Positions 753-33,976 of a DNA stretch of 60,502 nt are shown here, piece by piece; position 1 is the first letter of the stretch, and each line of letters starts with the position of its first letter. The DNA comes from an uncultured Acetobacteraceae bacterium (GTDB lineage: Bacteria; Pseudomonadota; Alphaproteobacteria; Acetobacterales; Acetobacteraceae), in contig CALMVT010000125.1 of assembly GCA_937873175.1 (NCBI GenBank), positions 1 through 60,502 on the forward strand. The letters run 5' to 3'. The notes under the pieces were generated by a model that was not told where the DNA came from, ran no database searches, and was given only the letters and a program-made list of their open reading frames with translations. Made by a program: the position numbers and the translations under genes.

Positions 753-3080
753 TCAGGCGGCGCGGCTCATGTGGATCGCCTTCCAAACCTTTTCCGGCGT
801 GGCGGGCATGTCGATGCTCTTCACCCCGGTGTCGGACAGCGCGTCCACGATCGCGTTGATCACCGCGGGCGGGCTGCCGACCGCGCCGGCCTCCCCGGCG
901 CCCTTGACCCCCAGCGGATTGCTGGCGCAAGGCACCTCGATCAGGTCAACCTCGATGTCCGGCAGGTCGGCCGCGCGGGGCAGGGCATAATCCATGAAGC
1001 TGCCCGACAGCAGCTGGCCGGATTGCGGGTCGTAAGCCGTCTGCTCCAGCACTGCCTGGCCGAATCCTTGGGCCACGCCGCCGTGCACCTGGCCGCGCAC
1101 GATCATCGGGTTCACCGCCTTGCCCACGTCGTCGCACACGATGTAGCGCACGATGGCGACCATCCCGGTGTCGGGATCAATCTCCACCTCCGCCATGTGG
1201 CAACCGTTCGGGAAGGTGTGAACGTCGATCTTGGCGATCTCCGCGGCATCGAGCGTCGTTGCGGCCTGGCCAGAGGCCGCCCGGGCGCGCTGCGCGGCTG
1301 CGAGTTCCAGGATGTCCAGACCGCGGTCGGTGCCGGCGACGCTGAACCGGCCGCCCGTGAACTCGATATCGGACACGGATGCTTCCAACGCCTCGGACGC
1401 CGCCTTCTTGCCCTTCTCGATGACGCTTGCCGCGGTGACCAGGATGGCCTGGCCTTCGGAGTACAGGCTGCGCGCGCCGCCGGTCCCGCCGCCGGTCGGG
1501 ATGGTGTCGGTGTCGCCCTGCTTGATCCGGATCTTGTCGCCGTCGATGCCGAGCTGATCCACCGTAAGCTGAACATAAGCGGTCTCGTGTCCCTGCCCGG
1601 TGCTTTGCGTGCCGACGAACACATCGACGAAGCCGTCATCGGCGAAGCGGATCTCCGCCCGCTCGCTCGGCGCGCCGCCGGTCGCTTCCAGGTAGTAGGA
1701 CATGCCGATGCCGCGCTTCATGCCGCGCCGCGCGCTGCTTGCGCGCCGCCCCTCGAAGCCCGCCCAGTCCATCTTCTCCAGTGCCGCATCCAGCACGCGC
1801 TGGAAGTCGCCGCTGTCGTAGGTCTGCTGCATCGCAGTCACATACGGCATGGCGCTCGGCGCCACCATGTTGCGACGGCGCAGCTCGATCCGGTCGATCC
1901 CGACCTCGGCAGCAGCCGCGTCGATCAGCCGTTCCACGACGTAGTTGCTTTCCGGCCGCCCGGCACCCCGGTAAGCATCCACCGGCACCGTGTGGGTAAA
2001 CACGCCGAGCACATTCACGTAGATGGACTGGAACTTGTAAACGCTGGCCAGCACCTTGGTGCCCGCAAGCGTCGGGATGAACGGCGCGAAGTTGGACAGG
2101 TAAGCGCCCATGTTCGCCACGTTGCGGGTGCGCAGCGCCAGAAAGTTGCCGTCCTTGTCGAGCGCGATCTCGCCCTGCGTGATGTTGTCGCGACCGTGGG
2201 TGTCCGACAGGAACGCCTCGCTCCGCTCGCTGGCCCACTTCACCGGACGCCCGAGGCGCCGCGCCGCGTAGCAAGTGAGCGCCTGCTCGGCATACAGGAA
2301 CAGCTTCATGCCGAAGCCGCCGCCGACATCGGGGGTCACAATGCGGAACCGGTCCTCCGGCACGTTGAACACCGCCTGGCCCAGCATGGACTTGAGCGGC
2401 CAGCCGCCCTGCGTGTTGGTGTAAAGCGTCCAGCGCTCGGACGCGGCGTCATACTCGGCCACAGCCGCGCGGGCCTCCATGGAGGCCACGATGACGCGGT
2501 TGTTCACCACCGTGAGCCGGGTGACATGGGCCGCCTGGGCGAACAAGGCCTCTGTGCGCTCCTTTTCCCCGGTTTCCCAGTCAAAGCACACATTGCCCGC
2601 CGCCTGCGGCCAAACCGCCGGCGCGTCGGCGTCGAGCGTCGCCCCCAGGTCGGTGATGCTGGGCAGGATGTCGTACTCCACCGTGACCGCCTCGGCCGCG
2701 TCCCGCGCCGCCTGGTGGGTTTGCGCAACGATGAAGGCCACGGGGTCGCCGACATGGCGCACCTCGCCATCCGCCAGCACCGGGTGCGGCACGTCGGCGC
2801 GGGCGGAGCCGTCGCGATTCTTCAACGGAATAAGGCAGGGCAGCCCGCCGATCCCATCCGCCTTCAGATCCGCCCCGGTGTAGATCGCGAGCACGCCGGG
2901 CAAAGCGGTGGCGGCGGTCGTGTCGATCGAAAGGATGCGCGCCGCCGCGTGCGGGCTGCGCAGGACAACGCCCACGGCCTCGTTCGCCAGGGTGATGTCG
3001 TCGGTGTAGCGTCCGTTGCCGATCAGCAGCCGGGGGTCTTCCACGCGCCGTACTGGCTGGGCCATGCCGAATTTTGTCAT
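753..3080 (-). CDS. Xanthine dehydrogenase-family molybdopterin-binding subunit (form II CoxL-like)
   Basis: This 775-residue protein is the large, molybdenum-cofactor-binding subunit of a xanthine dehydrogenase / aldehyde oxidase / CO dehydrogenase-type hydroxylase. GGFGMK at 254-259 is a cofactor-binding loop. AYRGAGR at 369-375 is the form II active-site signature, where true CO dehydrogenases have AYxCSFR. GAGEAG at 727-732 contains the catalytic glutamate (E730). It should therefore hydroxylate an aldehyde or N-heterocycle rather than oxidise CO, and the substrate cannot be read from sequence. The ATG at 3080 is preceded by GAGGAA. The FAD-binding medium subunit and the 2Fe-2S small subunit usually sit next to this gene, but neither is in this window; upstream lies an RND pump gene. 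Confidence 0.88.
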   Translation of the reverse strand: MTKFGMAQPVRRVEDPRLLIGNGRYTDDITLANEAVGVVLRSPHAAARILSIDTTAATALPGVLAIYTGADLKADGIGGLPCLIPLKNRDGSARADVPHPVLADGEVRHVGDPVAFIVAQTHQAARDAAEAVTVEYDILPSITDLGATLDADAPAVWPQAAGNVCFDWETGEKERTEALFAQAAHVTRLTVVNNRVIVASMEARAAVAEYDAASERWTLYTNTQGGWPLKSMLGQAVFNVPEDRFRIVTPDVGGGFGMKLFLYAEQALTCYAARRLGRPVKWASERSEAFLSDTHGRDNITQGEIALDKDGNFLALRTRNVANMGAYLSNFAPFIPTLAGTKVLASVYKFQSIYVNVLGVFTHTVPVDAYRGAGRPESNYVVERLIDAAAAEVGIDRIELRRRNMVAPSAMPYVTAMQQTYDSGDFQRVLDAALEKMDWAGFEGRRASSARRGMKRGIGMSYYLEATGGAPSERAEIRFADDGFVDVFVGTQSTGQGHETAYVQLTVDQLGIDGDKIRIKQGDTDTIPTGGGTGGARSLYSEGQAILVTAASVIEKGKKAASEALEASVSDIEFTGGRFSVAGTDRGLDILELAAAQRARAASGQAATTLDAAEIAKIDVHTFPNGCHMAEVEIDPDTGMVAIVRYIVCDDVGKAVNPMIVRGQVHGGVAQGFGQAVLEQTAYDPQSGQLLSGSFMDYALPRAADLPDIEVDLIEVPCASNPLGVKGAGEAGAVGSPPAVINAIVDALSDTGVKSIDMPATPEKVWKAIHMSRAA

Positions 3081-3149
3081 GCTTGCGGTTCCTCGCTGGC
3101 TTTAGGCTGTTTTTATGAAATGCGGATGGCGGGCGAAAGGCCAAGAGGC

Positions 3150-6100
3150 TTAATGCACGCGCTCCAGCGTCTTGCCGGATTTTCTGCCGAACCGGGCTTT
3201 CGTCCACTCCCGCATTCTTTGGAAGGTGACATACAGCATCGGGATCAGGAAGATGCCGAACATGCTGGCGGCGATCATGCCGGCGAACACCGGCGTGCCC
3301 ACGGCGCGGCGGCTGACCTGCGCCGCGCCGTTCGCAATCACCAGCGGCAACAGGCCGAGAACAAGCGCGATCGACGTCATCATCACGGCGCGGAACCGGG
3401 CCTGGGCACCGAGCCGCGCCGCCTCAGCAATCGGCTTGCCCTCCTCGCGCTGGTCCTTGGCGAACTCAACGATCAGGATGCCGTTCTTCGCCGCGATGGC
3501 GATCAGCACCACCAACCCGATCTGCGCATACAGGTCAAGCGCCAGCCCCGCCAACTGCAGCCCCGCGAAAGACCCCAGGATGCCGACGCTGACCGAAAGC
3601 AGCACCGGTATGGGGATCACCCAGCTTTCATAAAGCGCCACGAGGAACAGGTAGGCGAACAGGATCGCCAGGGCCAGGATCTTGCCGGTTTGCCCGGAGG
3701 CCGATTTTTCCTGGAACGCCGTCCCGGTCCACTCATAGCTGTAGCCGGGTGGCAGGGTGCTGTCGCTGATCTGCTCCATCGTCGCCAGCGCGTCGCCCGA
3801 GGACACGCCCGGCTTCGGCGTGCCGTTCACGGTGATCGAACGGTAGTTGTTGTAGCGGCTGATGGTCTGGGGCCCCAGCACGATCCGCGCGTCGGCGATC
3901 GAGCGCAGCGGCACCATGGTGCCCACCTTGTTGCGGATGTAGATGCGCCAAACCGCCGGGATATCGGTCCGGTCCAGGGCCTCGCCCTGGATGTTCACCT
4001 GCCAAGTCCGGCCGAACAGGTTGAAGTCGTTGACGTAGATGCCGCCCAAGGTGCCCTGCAGCGACGTGAACACGTCGCTGACCGACAAGCCCAGCGCCTG
4101 CGCCTTTTCCCGGTCGATGTCGAGGTAGATGCTGGGCGTCGTCGGGCTGAAGGTGCTGAACACCCGGGCAAGCTTCGGGTCCTGGTTCGCCGATGCGAGC
4201 AGGCCGTTCAGCACGTTGCCCATTTCCGCCGGTTCCCGGCCTTCCAGGTTCTGCAACTGGTATTCGAACCCGCCGCTGGTCGACAGCCCGATGATCGGCG
4301 GCAGGTTGAAGGGGAAGATCGTCGCCGAGCGGATCTGCTGCACGCCGGCGAACACCTGGCCGATCAACGCCTGCGCCTTGTCGGAAGCCGCCTTGCGGTC
4401 GGCGAACGGCTTCATACGCACCACGATGAAGGCCGCGTTGGACTGGTTGCCGCCGTCGAGCAACGAGAAGCCGACGATCGACAGCACGTTCTGGATCTGC
4501 GGAATGCCCCTGACCACCGCTTCCACCCGCTCCACCACGCCGCGGGTCCGGGTCACGCTGGCGCCGTCGGGCAACTGCACTGCGACGAAAAACGCGCCCT
4601 GGTCTTCGTCCGGCAGGAAGCCGGTCGGCGTGCGCAGGCTCAGGGCGTAGATGCCGCCGCCGCACAGCAGCACGACCAGCAGGCCGACGATGCCGACCCG
4701 CAGGAGCCGCGCAACGACCGCGGCGTAGCCATCCCGCACCCAGTCGATACCGCGCCCGATCCGGCCGAGGATGCCGCGCTTCGGCCCGCCGTGCCGCAAA
4801 AACACGCCGCACAGCGCCGGGGACAGCGTGAGCGCGTTGACCGCCGAGATCAGCACCGACACGCTGATGGTCACGGCGAACTGCCGGAACAGGGTGCCGG
4901 AGATGCCCGGGATGAAGGCGATCGGCACGAACACCGACAGCAGCACCAGCGTGATGGCGATGATCGGCGCGGTGATCTGCGCCATGGCCTTCTTCGTGGC
5001 GTCCTTGGAGGACAGCTCCGGCTCCTCCTCCATGACGCGCTCGACGTTTTCCACCACCACGATGGCGTCATCGACGACAATGCCGATGGCCAGCACCAGC
5101 GCCAGCAGCGACACGGTGTTCGCGGAGTAGCCGATTGCCAGCAGCACGGCGAAGGTGCCGATCAGGCTGACCGGCACGGCGATGGTCGGGATGATGGTCG
5201 CGCGGAGGTTGCCCAGGAACAGGAACACCACGACCACCACCAGCGCGAACGCTTCCAGCAGCGTGGATTTTACCTCGCTGATCGTGTCGGACACGAAGGT
5301 CGAGCTGTTGTAGAACACCTGCGACTTGAGGCCCTCGGGAAAGCGCTTGGCCAGGTCGTCGAGCGCCGCCTGCACGCGGTCCGCCGTCCGCACCGCGTTG
5401 GCGCCGGGGGCGAGGTACACGCCGAGCGTGACCGCCGGGTTGCCGTTCAGCCGACTTTCGCTGTCCTGCGTCGCGGCGCCCAGTTCGACCCGCGCCACGT
5501 CGCGCACCCGCAGCACGGAGCCGTCGGGATTGGCGCGCAACAGGATGTCGCCGAACTCCTCCGGCGTCGTGAGGCGTCCCTTGGTCTGCAGGTTGATCTG
5601 GAACTGCGTGTCGTCGCTGGTCGGGCGCGCGCCGACCCGGCCGACCGGCGCCTGCACGTTCTGTTGCTGGATCGCCAGGATCACGTCGCTCGGCGCCAAG
5701 TTGAGGCTGACCATCCGGCTGGTGTCGAACCAGATGCGCATGGAATAGTCGAGCGCGCCGAACAGCGTGGCCGACCCCACGCCGCTCACCCGGGACAGCC
5801 GGTCGAGCACGTTGATCGTCACGTAGTTCGAAATGAACAGCGGGTCCTGCTTCGCCCCCTCGCTGGAGAACGCCAGGAACTCCAGAATCGCCGAGGACCG
5901 CTTCTGCACGGTGACGCCCTGGCGCTGCACCTCCGCCGGCAGGCGGGACAGCGCCGCCTGCACGCGGTTGTTGACGTTGACGGTGTTGATGTCCGGGTTC
6001 GTTCCCAGCGCGAACGACACCGTCAGCCCATAGCTCCCGTCGTTCGCGGAGTTGGACTTCATGTAGATCATCTGGTCGGCCCCGTTGACCTGGGCTTCCA

Positions 6101-6296
6101 AGGGCTGGGCCACGGTCGCTTCCACCACCGCCGCGGACGCGCCGGGATAGCGGGTCGTGACCTGCACCTGCGGCGGCACCACGTCGGGGAACTGGCTGAC
6201 GGGGATCACGGTCATCGCGATCAGCCCGGCGATCACCGTGATGATCGCGATGACGATGGCGAGCCGCGGCCGATCAACGAAGACGGCGGAGATCAT
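3150..6296 (-). CDS. RND multidrug efflux transporter, inner-membrane permease (AcrB/MexB type)
   Basis: At 1048 residues this matches the usual length of hydrophobe/amphiphile efflux (HAE1) RND pumps. It has an N-terminal membrane helix at about 10-30, two large periplasmic loops and two sets of helices. The proton-relay aspartate pair lies in [16 protein letters not shown] (D409-D410), and the partner lysine is in the [15 protein letters not shown] segment near residue 945. It exports hydrophobic compounds from the inner membrane and periplasm using proton motive force, as a trimer with an adaptor and an outer-membrane channel. The adaptor gene ends 4 bases upstream, so the two form an operon. 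No outer-membrane factor (TolC/OprM) or TetR regulator is adjacent. Drug specificity cannot be inferred. Confidence 0.95.
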
Positions 6297-6300
6297 GGCG

Positions 6301-7470
6301 CTACGTCCGCGGCGCCGACGCGGGAAGCGTCGGACCGGTGCTGGCCGGGCCGGGGTTGACGGTGATGCCGGGTCTCACGCGCTGCACGCCGTCTGCCACC
6401 ACCGTTTCCCCTTCCTTCAGCCCGGCCGAGATCACCGCAAGGCCTGGGGTGTTCTGGCCCAGTTGGAGCCGGCGCTGCTCCACTTTGTTGCCGTCGCCCA
6501 CGACCCAGACGTAGTTGCCTTGCTGGTCCGACAAGACGGCGCTGCGCGGGATCACAATCTGGTCAACCGGTTGCACGCCCTCCAGTGTCACCGTCACGAA
6601 CTCCCCGTCCGACAGTTCTCGGTCGCCAGGTTCGCCAGGCTTCGATCCCGGCAGCAGCGGGTTCGGGACGCGCCCGCGCAGCGTCAGGGTATCGGTGTTG
6701 GCCGCCACCGTGGGATCGGCGTAGTCGAGCTTGCCGGCCTGGCCATACATCTTGCCGTTGGGCAGCCGGAGCTTGATCGTCACCGCGCCGAACCCGCCCC
6801 CCTTGCCCCCGTAGCGGTCCCGCAGATCGGTGGCGGCCCGGACGGAAACGGGGAACAGCACATACATCGGGTCCTGGCTCACGATGGTCGCGAGCACGCC
6901 GGAGCTCGGGCTGACAACGTTGCCCTCCGTCACGGTGGTGCGGCTGATCTTGCCGTCGATGGGCGCCTTGATCTCGGTATAGTCGAGGTTGGTCTGCGCC
7001 AGCCGCAACTGCGCCTGCGCGTTGGACAGTTGCGCCGCTTGGCTCCGCTGCGTGGCCCGCGCGTCGTCCACCAGGCTGCGCTGGCCCGCCGGCGTGTTCA
7101 GCAGCGCCTCCGCCCGGCCCAGGGTCAGGCTGCTGCCCTGCAGCACGGCCTGGGCCTGCGCGACGGACGCGGCCGCGGCGGCGACCTGCGCCTCGAACGG
7201 GGCACGCTCCAGCTTGTAAAGCACGTCGCCGGTGTGCACCTCCGCGCCCTCGGTGAAATGGCGCTCCTGCATGAAGGCCGTCACGCGGGCAACCAGGTCC
7301 ACACGGCTGATCGCCTGGATGCGTCCGACGAACTCGCTGGTTTCGGTGACGGGCTGTTTTTTCGCCTGCACAACGCCGACTGCGGGGGGGCCTCCAGGAC
7401 CGGGCTGCGCCAGGGCCGGGCCGGCAAGGGCGAGCAGGACGGGCGCCAGCAGGGAAAGGCGGCAGAGCAT
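6301..7470 (-). CDS. RND efflux periplasmic adaptor subunit (AcrA/MexA type)
   Basis: This 389-residue membrane-fusion protein begins with a signal peptide (about residues 1-22, ending ALAQ). The order is a beta-barrel strand and lipoyl half-motif, an alanine/glutamine-rich coiled-coil hairpin at about 95-165, the second lipoyl half with a [12 protein letters not shown]-type motif, and barrel and membrane-proximal domains. It bridges the pump encoded next to it and an outer-membrane channel. I chose the ATG at 7470; a GTG three codons earlier (7479) is possible, and neither has a strong ribosome-binding site. No lipobox cysteine follows the signal peptide, so it is probably not lipidated, unlike AcrA of Escherichia coli. 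Confidence 0.92.
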
Positions 7471-7816
7471 CGGGTTCACTTTCGCAGTACAGACGCTGCA
7501 GGTCCAGCAAAGGCGGGTCGCCGCATTGTCAGCTTTTTACCATTGCAGCACATCCAACCAAACCTTGCACGTTCGGCGGCATCGTCTCACCCCGGCCAAC
7601 TGGGGAGGCCGCGCGCCTTGCGACGGCTGGCCTTGGCATGTCCGGTTCGAGGATGCTTACCGTGCCGGGCAAGGTTGATCGCGCCTTCGGTTTGGTTTTA
7701 AGGAGGGCGGCGGCGCGGACGGCGTTTCTTGAAACGCCGGCATGGGCGTCCGCACGGGGCGCTCGAACCCCTGCACGCGCCAGGCGCTATATGCTTCAAA
7801 AAGCAGGAGTGTGACG
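7471..7816. other. Divergent intergenic region without a recognisable gene
   Basis: About 345 bases separate the efflux adaptor (leftward) from the DUF2934 gene (rightward). Apart from a perfect inverted repeat at 7720-7739 I see no coding signal or RNA gene. A TATATGCTT stretch at about 7790 could be part of a promoter for the rightward genes, but no convincing -35 box stands at the right distance. Confidence 0.5.
7720..7739. repeat. Perfect 9-bp inverted repeat with a 2-base centre
   Basis: CGGCGTTTC and GAAACGCCG are separated by TT. Read as RNA it would form an 8-bp stem capped by a CUUG tetraloop. It lies 77 bases before the DUF2934 start and has no T-run after it. An operator for a dimeric regulator or a 5' leader hairpin are both possible. 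Confidence 0.45.
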
Positions 7817-15746: not shown

Positions 15747-15950
15747 CTGCCGCTTCCCTTCATGCTTGCGCGCCGGTGCATTGTAGCCCGGGGAGCCATG
15801 CAGACAACGCCAGGTCCAGCGGCCAAACCTCCTGAAATGGCCCGCGGTCCCAAACTGGGCCGGTACTAAATCAACAAGCGGTGATCTCCGCATCCTGAAA
15901 CCATTGAGTTGCGTATCCGACAGCCAACATCGCCATCACCAAGGGTTGCC

Positions 15951-17069
15951 ATGCACCATTACATCCGTTCCATAGGTTTCGCCGGCCTTGCGGCCGTGCT
16001 GCTTTCGGGATGCACTTCGCCGCCGCAGGGAAAGACGCCGTATCAACCCACGGCCGACATGGCGGCGGTGCTCGCCGCACAGGCCGATCTTGGCGCCAAG
16101 CCGATCGACGATCTGACGCCGGCGCAGGCGCGGGTGAACCCGTCCATTGCCGACGCGGTGCTGAAGGTGGAGCAGCAGCGCGGCATGAGCACGGCGCCCA
16201 TGCCGGCGCGGGTCGAGGATGTCCAGGTGCAAGGCGCCGCCGGGCTGCTTCCGGCGAGGGTATACCGACCGGCCATGGCGACGCCCGGCCCATTGCCGAT
16301 CATCCTTTATTTCCACGGCGGCGGCTGGGTGATCTCGACGATTGACACCTATGACAGCTCGGCCCGGGCTTTGGCCAACGGCGCCGGGGCGGTCGTGGTG
16401 TCCGTGGAGTACCGGAAAGGGCCGGAGGACCGATTCCCTGCCGCGCACGACGACGCCGTTGCAGCCTACCGCTTCGTGCTGCAGCACGCGGCGCCTTTGG
16501 GTGGCGACGAGCGGCACGTCGCGGTGGCCGGGGAAAGCGCGGGCGGCAACCTGGCCTTCAACGTGGCGTTGGCGGCCCGGGACCAGAAGCTGCCGATGCC
16601 GGTGCACCAACTGCTCGTCTATCCCGTCGCCAGCACGGACCTGATGGCGCCGAGCGTGCAGGAGAACGCGCGGGCAAAGCCGCTGAGCCGGGCCGCGCTG
16701 GAATGGTTCATCAAGTACTATGGCCGCGGGCCGCAGGACGTTGCGGACACCCGACTCAACCTTCTGGGCGTGTCCGACCTCCAGGGGCTGCCGTCCACGA
16801 CGATCATCCTGGCGCAGATCGACCCATTGCGTTCGGGCGGCGAAACGCTGGGCGACCGCCTTCGCACCGCCGGCGTGCCGGAGGAAACGCGTCTGTATCC
16901 CGGGGTGACGCATGAGTTCTTCGGCACCGGCGCGGTAGTGCCGGAGGGCAAGGCGGCGGTGGCGTTTGCCAGCGAGCGGCTGAAGCAGTCATTCGCCGCC
17001 GTGCCGGCGTTGCCCGCGCCGACCCGGCGCGGCCGGGCGGTCCGCGCTCGCACGGCGCAGGGATACTGA
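15951..17069 (+). CDS. Lipoprotein alpha/beta hydrolase, hormone-sensitive-lipase family
   Basis: This 372-residue protein starts with a lipoprotein signal peptide whose lipobox is LLSGC (C21), so it is probably anchored in the envelope. The hydrolase domain carries the oxyanion-hole motif HGGGW (122-126) and the nucleophile elbow GESAG (S196). A later aspartate (IDPLRSGG) and histidine (VTHEFFG) complete the triad. This is the bacterial HSL / family IV esterase type, acting on short acyl esters, often annotated as acetyl esterase. An ATG upstream in frame at 15909 is less likely because only the start at 15951 gives a clean signal peptide. The stop is 2 bases before the broken catalase-family gene. 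Confidence 0.85.
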   Translation: MHHYIRSIGFAGLAAVLLSGCTSPPQGKTPYQPTADMAAVLAAQADLGAKPIDDLTPAQARVNPSIADAVLKVEQQRGMSTAPMPARVEDVQVQGAAGLLPARVYRPAMATPGPLPIILYFHGGGWVISTIDTYDSSARALANGAGAVVVSVEYRKGPEDRFPAAHDDAVAAYRFVLQHAAPLGGDERHVAVAGESAGGNLAFNVALAARDQKLPMPVHQLLVYPVASTDLMAPSVQENARAKPLSRAALEWFIKYYGRGPQDVADTRLNLLGVSDLQGLPSTTIILAQIDPLRSGGETLGDRLRTAGVPEETRLYPGVTHEFFGTGAVVPEGKAAVAFASERLKQSFAAVPALPAPTRRGRAVRARTAQGY

Positions 17070-17071
17070 GC

Positions 17072-18165
17072 ATGGCGAACTTCGTGCGCTACGCCGACAG
17101 CTTGGAAGCACCAGCCCCCGGCGAGCAGGAGGTCGTCGGGCAAATCATCCTCGCCATGCAGCGGGAAACGGACAAAGTTGCCGAACGCGAGCACCACGCG
17201 GTTCGGGCGTCACATGCCAAGAGCACCGGGCTGCTCAAGGGGGAGCTGCGCGTCTTGGATGGCCTGCCGCCGCATCTCGCCCAGGGCTTGTTCGCCCGGC
17301 CGCACAGCTACCCTGCCGTTGTCCGGTTCGCGCAGGGGCCGGGCGAGCATTTATCCGACAGCGTTTCGACGCATCGTGGCATGGCGGTCAAGCTGTTCGG
17401 CGTCCATGGCCCGGCGCTGCCGGGGCATGAGGGCCGCGGAACGCAGGACTTCGTTTTTGCCACCGGCACGACGTTTCCGCAGGCCAATTCGGCGAGCTTT
17501 CTCACGGCGATCAAGGGCCTCGAGAAAAGCACCAACATGCCGGAAGCGATGAAGCAGGCGGCAGCGACCGCGGCGCGGGCCGCCAATGCCGTCGTTTAGG
17601 CGGTGGGCGGTGACAGCGCGACCCTTGGCTTCTTCGGCCACAGCAAGCGCAACCCGCTGAGCGACGCTTATTTCAGCCAGGCACCGATGCGCTACGGCGA
17701 CCATGTGGCAAAGCTGGGCTTCTTCCCGGTCTCGCCGGGAGCTGGTCGCCATGATTGACCAGACGCTCGACACCAGCGACGATCCCGACGCCTTCCGCAC
17801 CGCATTAGTCGGTTTCATGCGGACGCAGGGTGCCGAGTTTGGGCTGCGGGTGCAGCTTTGCACCGACCTGGACCGCATGCCGGTCGAGGACGCCGCCGTG
17901 ACGTGGCCGGAGGACGAAAGTCCCTACGCTGCGGTGGCCCGCCTGACCTTGCCGCCGCGAGACGCCTACAGCCCGGCGCGCCAGACCTACTTCGACGGCG
18001 TGCTCGCCTTTCGCCCGGCGCACAGCCTGGCGGCCGGCCCATCGCCCGCTCGGCTCCATTATGCGCGCCCGGCTCGCCGCCTATTCGGCATTGTCGGCCT
18101 ATCGGCACGAGCGCAACGGCCAACTGCAGACCGAGCCGGCCTCCATCGGCGACGTTCCCGATTGA
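17072..18165 (+). pseudogene. Catalase-family protein (y4iL-like), disrupted by one stop codon and two frameshifts
   Basis: Joining three segments restores a protein of about 360 residues like the small heme-dependent catalase-like family. It begins MANFVRYADSLE, has ASHAKSTGLLKGEL near the expected heme-pocket histidine, then NPLSDAYFSQAPMRYGDHVAK, and ends with GSIMRARLAAYSAL before a stop at 18163-18165. The lesions are an in-frame TAG at 17597-17599, one extra G in the run 17737-17739, and a 4-base tandem duplication (GGCC at 18032-18035 and 18036-18039). Removing the extra G turns the local reading into VSPELVAM, and removing one GGCC gives AAHRPLGSIM. Both match the family pattern. It sits 2 bases after the esterase gene, so the pair was probably once an operon. 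Confidence 0.85.
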
Positions 18166-18217: not shown

Positions 18218-18292
18218 GCATACCGTGTTCTTAAATAGACACCGCCAGTTGCGGCGGGGTCGGTGCACGTCCCAGCAGGGGAGCGAGTTGAC

Positions 18293-19531
18293 ATGCTATC
18301 ACGCCGTAATGCCATCCAAACCGCAGCCATTCTCGCCGCTGCCGCCGCGACCGGCTCAAGACGCGCGCTGGCTGCCGACAAGGTAATCAAGGTCGGCGTC
18401 AACCTGTCATTTACCGGAGCCGATGCGGAGAACGCCGCGCGGATCGGCAACGGCGCGGTGATCGCGTTCGAGGAGGCGAACGCCGCCAAGGCGGTGCCGC
18501 GCTACACGTTCCAGCTTGTGAAGCTCGACGACGCCACCGCCACCGCCGGGCAATACGACCCGGCGCAGGCGGCGACCAACGCGCGCACCATGGTGTCGGA
18601 CAAGGCGTATGTGGCGGCGCTCGGCCCGCAGATGTCGGGTGCGGGCAAGGCGATGGCGCCGATCCTGAGCCAGGGTAACCTCGCGATCATCACCCCAGCC
18701 TCGACCAACCCCGATCTGACCGATCCGAAGTTCGCCCAGCAATACCGGCCTGCGGGCAAGGCGATCTACTTCCGGACGGTGGCGACGGACGCCTATCAAG
18801 GGCCCAACATGGCCAACTACATGGCCGACACGCTGAAGGTGAAATCGGTCTTCGTGCTCGATGACTCCGGCGCATACGGCGTCGGCATCGCGGACTCGTT
18901 TCAGGCGCAGGCGGAGAAGCGGGGCGTGAAGGTGCTCGGGCGCGACCGGCTGGACCCCAAGGCCGCGGACTACGCGCCGATCCTGACCAAGATCAAGTCA
19001 TTGGGCCCGCAAGGGCTGTACTACGGCGGGGTCAGCCAGGCGGGCGTCAAGCTGGCTAAGCAGGCATACGAAATCATTCCGGATGTCATCAAGGCAGGCG
19101 GCGACGGGATGCAGACGGTGGATCTGCTGAAGGGGGCCGGCTTCCCCGCGGTTGAGGGCTGGTACGCCACGGTTGCGTCCCCGCACGTGATCGAGGACCC
19201 GATTGCCGCCAAGTTCAGCGACCGCTACTTCGCTCGTTTCAAGCAGCATCCGGACGATTACACCATCACCTGCTACACCGGCGCCCAGGTCATCATCGAG
19301 GCAGTGAAACGGGTCGCCGCGTCCGGCAAGCCGGTGACGCGGGACGCGGTGCGCGACGCCATCCAGGGCGTCAAGCTACCGACCAGCATGCTCGGCCCGA
19401 TCGAGTTCGACGAATACGGGGATCTGCGCAACAAGATCATCAGCGTGTTCCAGATCCGAAAGAACACGGAGCAGCCGCTCGATGACCCGACGGCGCAATA
19501 CAAGTACGTGGGCGTCGCGCCGGTCGCCTGA
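18293..19531 (+). CDS. Branched-chain amino acid-type ABC transporter substrate-binding protein (LivJ family)
   Basis: This 412-residue periplasmic binding protein has an N-terminal export signal containing twin arginines (SRRNAIQ) and ending near ALAAD. The type I periplasmic binding fold follows, with KVGVNLSFTGADAEN at the start of the mature protein, LAIITPASTNPDLTD near residue 135 and DDSGAYGVG near 195. It should capture an amino acid or another small amphipathic substrate for the permease encoded downstream. I chose the ATG at 18293 over an in-frame GTG at 18263 because it gives the signal peptide directly and has AGGGGAG about 10 bases upstream. It is the first gene of a four-gene liv operon. 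The actual ligand cannot be told from sequence. Confidence 0.9.
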   Translation: MLSRRNAIQTAAILAAAAATGSRRALAADKVIKVGVNLSFTGADAENAARIGNGAVIAFEEANAAKAVPRYTFQLVKLDDATATAGQYDPAQAATNARTMVSDKAYVAALGPQMSGAGKAMAPILSQGNLAIITPASTNPDLTDPKFAQQYRPAGKAIYFRTVATDAYQGPNMANYMADTLKVKSVFVLDDSGAYGVGIADSFQAQAEKRGVKVLGRDRLDPKAADYAPILTKIKSLGPQGLYYGGVSQAGVKLAKQAYEIIPDVIKAGGDGMQTVDLLKGAGFPAVEGWYATVASPHVIEDPIAAKFSDRYFARFKQHPDDYTITCYTGAQVIIEAVKRVAASGKPVTRDAVRDAIQGVKLPTSMLGPIEFDEYGDLRNKIISVFQIRKNTEQPLDDPTAQYKYVGVAPVA

Positions 19532-32741: not shown

Positions 32742-33976
32742 CCTGGCCGATTGCTGTCGCGGGAACCGTGTCGGTTCCGCTCTTGGCCGCCGCCGCGTTG
32801 GCTGTGGTGCCGTCTCATCGTGCCGCCCGGGCGGGCAGCGCCGTGGCAGCCGCTGCGGCCCTGGGCTGCGCCGCGTTCCTGCCCTGGACCACGGCAGAGC
32901 CTGGCGACGCGCTGTTGACCGACGGGCTTGCGGCCCATCTTGCCGTCCTCGCGGGACTTGTCGGGCTGATCACCGCCTGGGCCGAGCGTCACGCCGCGCC
33001 ACGCCGCCCGGCCATCCTGCTTCTGCTGCTGGGCCTCGTTCAACTCGCGCTCCTGTCGGACGACATCGGCCTGGCTTGGACGGCGTTTGCCGCGGCTGCC
33101 ATGCTGACAGCGGGGTGGCGGCCCGGCCCGGCTCTGCTGCCCACCGCTGCCGGGGTGCTGTTGGCGCTTTTCGGCGTTGTTCTGCTGCACGCCGCAGCGT
33201 CACCGCCTGATGTCGGCTGGCCTGGCTTGCGGTGGACCGGTCTCCCTGCTGCCGCGCCGGGCTGCCAGGGCCACGTGCTGAGCCTGGCGTTCCTGCTGCT
33301 GCTCGCCGGCTACGGCGCGGTGGCCGTGTTGGCGCCGCGCCAGGCAGGAACGGGAAGCGCGTCGGGCGTTCTGCTGCCGGTCGTCGCGTTCTCCGTGGTG
33401 CTGCGCTTGCGGGGGGTGATGGCGGCCAATGCCGACGCCGTTGCGCCGGGGCCGCCGCTCCTTGCCTTTGGGATGGGCGCGCTGCTGCTCGGGGCGTTCG
33501 GCGTGTGGCGCAGAGGTCGGCTCCTGGCTGCCAGCAGCCTCGGCCATAACGGGATCGCCGCCGTCGCGTTTGGGCTGGGCGGCCCGGCGGCAACCTTCGC
33601 CGGCCTGCTGCACCTGACCGCGCACAGCCTGGCCCACGCGGCGCTTCGGCGTTCCCTTCCGGCGGCGCCGCTTGCCGTCCTGCTGGTTGCGCTCGCCGGG
33701 CTGCCGCCCTTCGCGCTGTTCGGAAGCGAGGCGTTGATCCTCGCCGAGGCGGTGCGCGTGCTGCCTGGGTTGGCCCTGGTGTTCGGCCTGGGCCTCCTGT
33801 TGTTGGCCGGCGCGCTGGCCGTGCGCCTGCGTGAGCGTCGTTCCGGCCCGGCGACCGGGCCAAGCGGCACGGCGTTCGCCTGGGTCTGGCTGCCGGTGGC
33901 GGCGCTGCTGGGCTTGGGGGCGGTCATGCCGGCGGGGGTGGCGGCCTGGTTCCGGGCCGTGGCGGCGTCGCCTTGA
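32738..33976 (+). CDS. HyfF-like antiporter-type membrane subunit with proton-channel residues replaced
   Basis: This 412-residue membrane protein is shorter than typical HyfF (about 480-530) but aligns with it. The segment DIGLAWTAFAAAAML has alanine (A118) where the family has the glutamate of IEATTL. GYGAVAVLAP (191-200) has valine (V195) for the lysine of GYGTKAGLAP and lacks the following histidine. LLHLTAHSLAHAAL (291-304) keeps two histidines but has histidine (H300) for the lysine of HALTKSLL. Two normal helical blocks are thus present without the charged residues thought to carry protons. Its ATG overlaps the upstream stop. Confidence 0.75.
   Translation: MTWPIAVAGTVSVPLLAAAALAVVPSHRAARAGSAVAAAAALGCAAFLPWTTAEPGDALLTDGLAAHLAVLAGLVGLITAWAERHAAPRRPAILLLLLGLVQLALLSDDIGLAWTAFAAAAMLTAGWRPGPALLPTAAGVLLALFGVVLLHAAASPPDVGWPGLRWTGLPAAAPGCQGHVLSLAFLLLLAGYGAVAVLAPRQAGTGSASGVLLPVVAFSVVLRLRGVMAANADAVAPGPPLLAFGMGALLLGAFGVWRRGRLLAASSLGHNGIAAVAFGLGGPAATFAGLLHLTAHSLAHAALRRSLPAAPLAVLLVALAGLPPFALFGSEALILAEAVRVLPGLALVFGLGLLLLAGALAVRLRERRSGPATGPSGTAFAWVWLPVAALLGLGAVMPAGVAAWFRAVAASP

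Follow-up and report, generated by a model that had tools for sequence, protein, structure and literature searches.

The window analysed here is a stretch of 60,502 nucleotides from an uncultured Acetobacteraceae bacterium. Between positions 17072 and 18165 of its forward strand lies a single catalase-like gene of the y4iL type, which is legible only across three successive reading frames (Table 1). The gene starts with an ATG at 17072, 2 bases past the end of an intact alpha/beta-hydrolase gene, and the stop codon of its last frame is at 18163–18165. The ABC gene on the downstream side has counterparts at 86–89% in the same-genus genomes G001 and G002.

Table 1. The broken catalase-like gene, its lesions and its two neighbours (positions in the window; columns refer to the family profile)
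Feature	Position	Strand	Evidence
Alpha/beta-hydrolase (Abhydrolase_3) gene, intact, directly upstream	15909..17069	+	Pfam PF07859 E 1.6e-62; 78% orthologue in G001
Pseudogene piece 1: 175 codons, then TAG	17072..17599	+	Profile columns 2–175 (nt 17075–17596), E 7e-63
Lesion 1: in-frame TAG	17597..17599	+	Sequence
Pseudogene piece 2, same frame as piece 1, past the TAG	17600..17740	+	Columns 177–224, E 1e-14
Lesion 2: GGG, +1 frame change	17737..17739	+	Sequence, codon-usage plot, profile
Pseudogene piece 3, second frame	17739..18035	+	Columns 224–322, E 1e-38
Lesion 3: GGCC tandem duplication, GGCCGGCC, +4 shift	18032..18039	+	Sequence, profile
Pseudogene piece 4, third frame	18037..18165	+	Columns 322–362 (nt 18037–18159), E 2e-12
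ABC substrate-binding protein gene (branched-chain amino-acid type), intact, downstream flank	18263..19531	+	Pfam PF13458 E 1.4e-46

A 363-column family profile was made from ten intact relatives, and the four pieces of the gene tile its columns 2–362. Within this range the sole missing column is the one occupied by the TAG, which excludes a chance match and bears out the preliminary description, according to which family sequence continues across the joins. The codon-usage plot switches frame at the same places as the profile pieces, and the frame change at the second lesion falls within 17737–17740 (the GGG). Piece 1 holds an R-x-x-H-A-K-S motif; the translation of piece 4 holds an R-x-x-x-Y motif and the last stop. 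The three lesions represent three mutation types, only one of them being a homopolymer length change, and any single one would abolish the full-length product. Their positions and types are as first described, in agreement with the frames, the profile and the codon usage. An annotation calling short proteins at 17072–18165 would miscount a catalase.

The gene had been assigned to the catalase family. The profile tiling places it in the catalase-like superfamily, but it is not a true catalase: the match of piece 1 to the Pfam catalase profile PF00199 (E 0.033, 13.7 bits) stays below the gathering cut-off of 25, and pieces 2, 3 and 4 gave no match to this profile. Among 11 relatives searched in the same way, six matched PF00199 at E 0.1 or better, and the relative L014 did not match. 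Weak beta-lactamase matches of piece 3 in Pfam/NCBIfam (E 0.06–0.08) were taken as chance. We take the family to be the y4iL-like conserved domain cd08152. The y4iL-like family is described as cd08152 (PMC4417212), and its name and uncharacterised status are given in PMC4417212 and PMC5103461.

In a tree that left out L092, L093, L094, L089, L095 and the second tandem copy in L146, the window copy was found inside a five-row set with a support of 99/96. The nearest copy over the full length belongs to G104 (66% over 356 columns). The closest relative in a scan of named genomes was L014, from an uncultured Acetobacteraceae bin (56% over piece 1); it is 57% identical to the window copy over L014 residues 3–220, and a 100% identical protein is present in G067, a genome which the genome search assigns to the same bacterial family as the window.

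The fold was evaluated on L014, used as an intact stand-in for the broken copy. The predicted structure had a pLDDT of 80.8 and a pTM of 0.84, with residues 44–48 and 168–187 under 50, and a catalase fold is predicted for this relative: the VIA comparison gave Z values of 22.6–24.6 against the 50 catalase-fold entries shown, and of about 23 for many catalases. This result was clearer than that of the PDB sequence search, where true catalases appeared at E 1e-6 with mostly short or partial coverage and 3e4w at 0.011. Residues R44, H47 and R330 were invariant in an 11-member alignment, and Y334 was nearly so. Judging by position, and by the ligand roles in catalases, R44/H47 would presumably belong to the motif of the distal histidine, while R-x-x-x-Y would supply the proximal ligand.

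Several other peroxide-type enzymes are encoded in the same genome. Contig C482 carries an intact catalase-like paralogue of 371 residues, contig C419 a PF00199 protein over the cut-off, and contig C11 a frame of 753 codons without interruption that matches the peroxidase domain twice, as KatG does. A further paralogue on contig C396 (L012, 18474–19518, minus strand) shows a +1 frameshift a few codons at most from the position corresponding to the second lesion in the window. The preliminary description had suggested altered oxidative-stress handling. Since the intact paralogue, the PF00199 protein and the KatG-type frame are kept, and the activity of the family is uncharacterised, a changed peroxide response is not indicated.

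The state of preservation of the gene was compared with that of intact relatives. The dN values between the window copy and four relatives were 0.263, 0.261, 0.283 and 0.418, and those between the nearest intact copy and the same four were 0.277, 0.275, 0.290 and 0.387. The dN/dS ratio was 0.28–0.36 for the window copy to five relatives, 0.30–0.40 when the nearest intact copy was compared with four of these, and 0.14 for a close intact pair. In the tree, the tips of the window copy and of the nearest intact copy had the same length (0.25). Taken together, dN, dN/dS and the equal tip lengths reveal no detectable excess of amino-acid change in the window copy. The GC3 of the pieces was 0.81–0.87, and the codon bias persists in each frame. 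The earlier view of an inactivated, well-preserved and hence recently broken gene fits these data, as dN, codon bias and branch length are all in line with the values of intact relatives. We give no age, the synonymous sites being far diverged.

Conserved positions were examined separately. Of the 72 columns that do not vary within the intact clade, 5 are altered in the window copy, a level reached by one of the 17 intact members, for which the median changed fraction at the conserved columns of the clade was 1.4%. At the family-wide conserved columns the window copy is altered at 1 of 39; the proportion is at least as high in 17 of the 86 intact copies. This small excess suggests a slight relaxation at the conserved sites, and counts against a very recent inactivation.

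The locus was also compared with same-genus genomes, as the preliminary description had envisaged, and the gene proved to be absent from the collinear place in both G001 and G002. The end of the hydrolase gene and the ABC gene are present in both, separated where the gene would be by a spacer of 48 bases in G001 and 58 bases in G002. A search with piece 1, in which every first-look candidate was scored, found no family copy in G001 (97% complete), G002 (73%) or G003 (67%), and in G003 there was no match across the 17072–18165 slot. The G002 spacer aligns collinearly with bases 10–58 of the gene, with a score that 4 of 1000 shuffles reached against the first 90 bases and 41 of the 1000 against the gene as a whole. 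On the strength of this alignment G002 may keep a 5' scrap of the gene. The remnant is weak; a deletion in G002 is likely, and the scrap would be what it left behind. Alignment of the G001 spacer to the gene showed no trace of it, and in G001 the gene may have been lost or may never have been present. Within this one genus several states occur together: one paralogue is intact and another frameshifted, the window gene carries three lesions, and the site can be empty.

The pairing with a hydrolase gene is found elsewhere. In the loci fetched from G067, G145, G411, G044 and G149, a hydrolase gene and a catalase-like gene lie within about 1.1 kb. The order and the strand vary among these five genomes. 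Apart from the upstream copy in G067, the catalase-like neighbours of the hydrolase come from other family branches. The partners of the hydrolase being mostly from other branches, the pairing seen in the window could be newly formed and not inherited. L014 (4995–9245) has a compact three-gene cluster on one strand, in which an alpha/beta-hydrolase gene sits between two catalase-like genes from different branches.

This distribution of partners and the empty G001 spacer would both be compatible with a gene recently acquired by the present lineage, then broken, and never possessed by the congeners. Such a history appears unlikely to us, given the collinear match of the G002 spacer to the 5' end of the gene, the gap of only 2 bases to the hydrolase gene, and a codon use which matches that of the genome. 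The question touches history only, and the gene is broken either way.

A different possibility is that the gene is intact and that assembly or sequencing errors have put three mistakes into the draft consensus. We consider this improbable. The assembly is indeed a draft of 624 contigs, the protein divergence shows no excess, and the C396 paralogue is likewise +1-shifted close to the equivalent place; however, the three lesions crowd into one gene, they are of three types of which only one is a homopolymer length change, and the gene is missing from two congeners. A lesion screen was performed on 242 kb of the genome itself, corresponding to the window and 20 stretches, and the 25 events listed were judged by eye. 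At least nine lesions in five genes were accepted, three of them in this gene; the other genes are the C396 paralogue, L026, L027 and L034, the last three being judged by eye. At the rate of the other lesions, the probability of at least three in a gene of this size is about 4e-6, a figure for which the background may be undercounted, as the +1 shift of this very gene was absent from the events listed, even though the segments do change there. The rest of the window held no other accepted lesion in this screen of imperfect sensitivity, the event at 33833 being judged by eye to be a gene boundary. The remaining events were attributed to gene boundaries or to a run of N, with L028, L036 near 14095, L037, L039 and L040 left unassigned. 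The clustering of lesions in one gene argues against scattered consensus errors. The support for the presence of the lesions in the organism itself is indirect, and an assembly error is less likely than decay.

As judged by eye, L026 (C3, about 5200–7800, minus strand) looks like a molybdopterin subunit of the xanthine-dehydrogenase type, with several frame changes and an in-frame TAG. L027 (C10, about 1500–3090, plus strand) is a MmgE/PrpD-like gene with one in-frame TGA at 2331 and coding sequence on both sides. L034 (C250, 178–1664, minus strand) is a carboxylesterase-like gene with an in-frame TAG at about 765.

Copies of the family were surveyed in 397 genomes of the bacterial family, at most five candidates being scored per genome, and 83 genomes had a match. 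The 97 distinct copies comprised 87 single open frames, 7 frame-broken copies and 3 short ones; "intact" was defined by length cut-offs of 0.85 and 0.80 of the profile, and the frame-broken counts were unaffected by this choice. The frame-broken copies are those of the window and of C396 in the same genome, those of G143, G301, G009 and G342, and the second tandem copy in G197, and the short ones are in G129, G042 and G202. Eleven distant copies (G117, G085, G131, G045, G070, G168, G142, G147, G073, G280 and G146) were left out, and the survey misses some copies, such as the intact G149 copy next to a hydrolase gene, which lies outside the 97. An internal-stop flag was dropped as a measure of decay: it was raised for G179, G221 and G173, where a single open frame contains the profile match, and for many esterase rows.

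With the window copy set aside, 6 of 96 catalase-like copies were frame-broken, compared with none of 58 esterase control copies (one-sided Fisher p = 0.055, or 0.012 if the three short copies are added to the broken ones). We do not rely on this contrast, since the esterase control is made of best-scoring rows and so favours intact copies, broken copies scoring lower, whereas the 97 catalase-like copies include low-scoring partial rows. Like for like, with the 58 best rows taken from either search and without the window, the count was 1 of 57 (G301) against 0 of 58 (p = 0.50). On this count there is no excess of broken catalase-like copies. Pseudogenes in general are common. Two of the three catalase-like copies found in the window genome are broken, and, taken with the empty slot in two congeners and the 6 of 96 broken copies elsewhere, this gives a lead, though a very doubtful one, that the y4iL-type family has been inactivated time and again in separate lineages of the Acetobacteraceae. 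If so, the activity would in many cases be redundant or carry a cost, much as for contingency genes or niche-dependent ones. The y4iL-type function being uncharacterised, a pattern of loss could hint at when these proteins are needed.

Some of the other copies had peculiarities of their own. L095 (G009:C107:112900–115000) shows two compensating frameshifts, which leave about 40 residues out of frame in an otherwise open frame. In L092 (G129:C64) and L093 (G042:C16), which are from one genus, the match goes no further than profile column 108, with about 100 bases left to a contig end. An insertion or a repeat at the same place is a possible explanation for this common end point.

The idea that readthrough, programmed frameshifting or separate translation still yields a working protein from the pieces, to which the codon bias and protein sequence kept in all frames and the frame change of the C396 paralogue at the same place to within a few codons could lend some colour, is extremely improbable, as several different events would all be required in one gene, 87 of the 97 copies examined are single open frames and none of the broken ones shows the break pattern of the window, and programmed frameshifting in particular was rejected because the shift sites differ between the two paralogues and several events would be needed.

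The stretch 17072–18165 is thus very probably a pseudogene of recent origin, whose intact form encoded a catalase-like haem protein of the y4iL type. The pseudogene itself is well supported, and we interpret it as ordinary gene decay caught early. We propose that the intact ancestor lay 2 bases behind the hydrolase gene in an operon-like arrangement, and that its protein would have bound haem and acted on peroxides. The catalase-like gene would have become dispensable in the genus, under relaxed selection. Any one of the lesions would have been sufficient to stop the full-length product, and the remaining ones could then build up neutrally. The product that could still be made would consist of the first 175 residues. 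It would keep the presumed distal-histidine region, without the C-terminal helix bearing the presumed tyrosine ligand; as this helix is missing, it should not form the haem site. The accessible part of the literature on y4iL, catalase-related and catalase-pseudogene topics contained no report of the 17072–18165 locus; an earlier report is still possible.

The gene resembles the y4iL-like proteins (cd08152) in its length of about 360 residues, its R-x-x-H-A-K-S motif and its C-terminal R-x-x-x-Y motif, and differs from them in being broken by three lesions. Among proteins of known structure, the L014 model reached a VIA Z value of 24.6 with the coral allene oxide synthase (1u5u). Its best Foldseek match was the catalase-related protein of Mycobacterium avium subsp. 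paratuberculosis (3e4y; VIA Z of 23.1 with 3e4w), a small protein with the catalase fold. The identity is 19–20%, and both its length and its sequence set this protein in another subfamily. A catalase gene was likewise lost in the course of genome decay in Staphylococcus aureus subsp. anaerobius (PMC8171923). That organism is catalase-negative and microaerophilic, whereas in the genome of the window an accessory catalase-like paralogue was lost and other peroxide-type enzymes are left.
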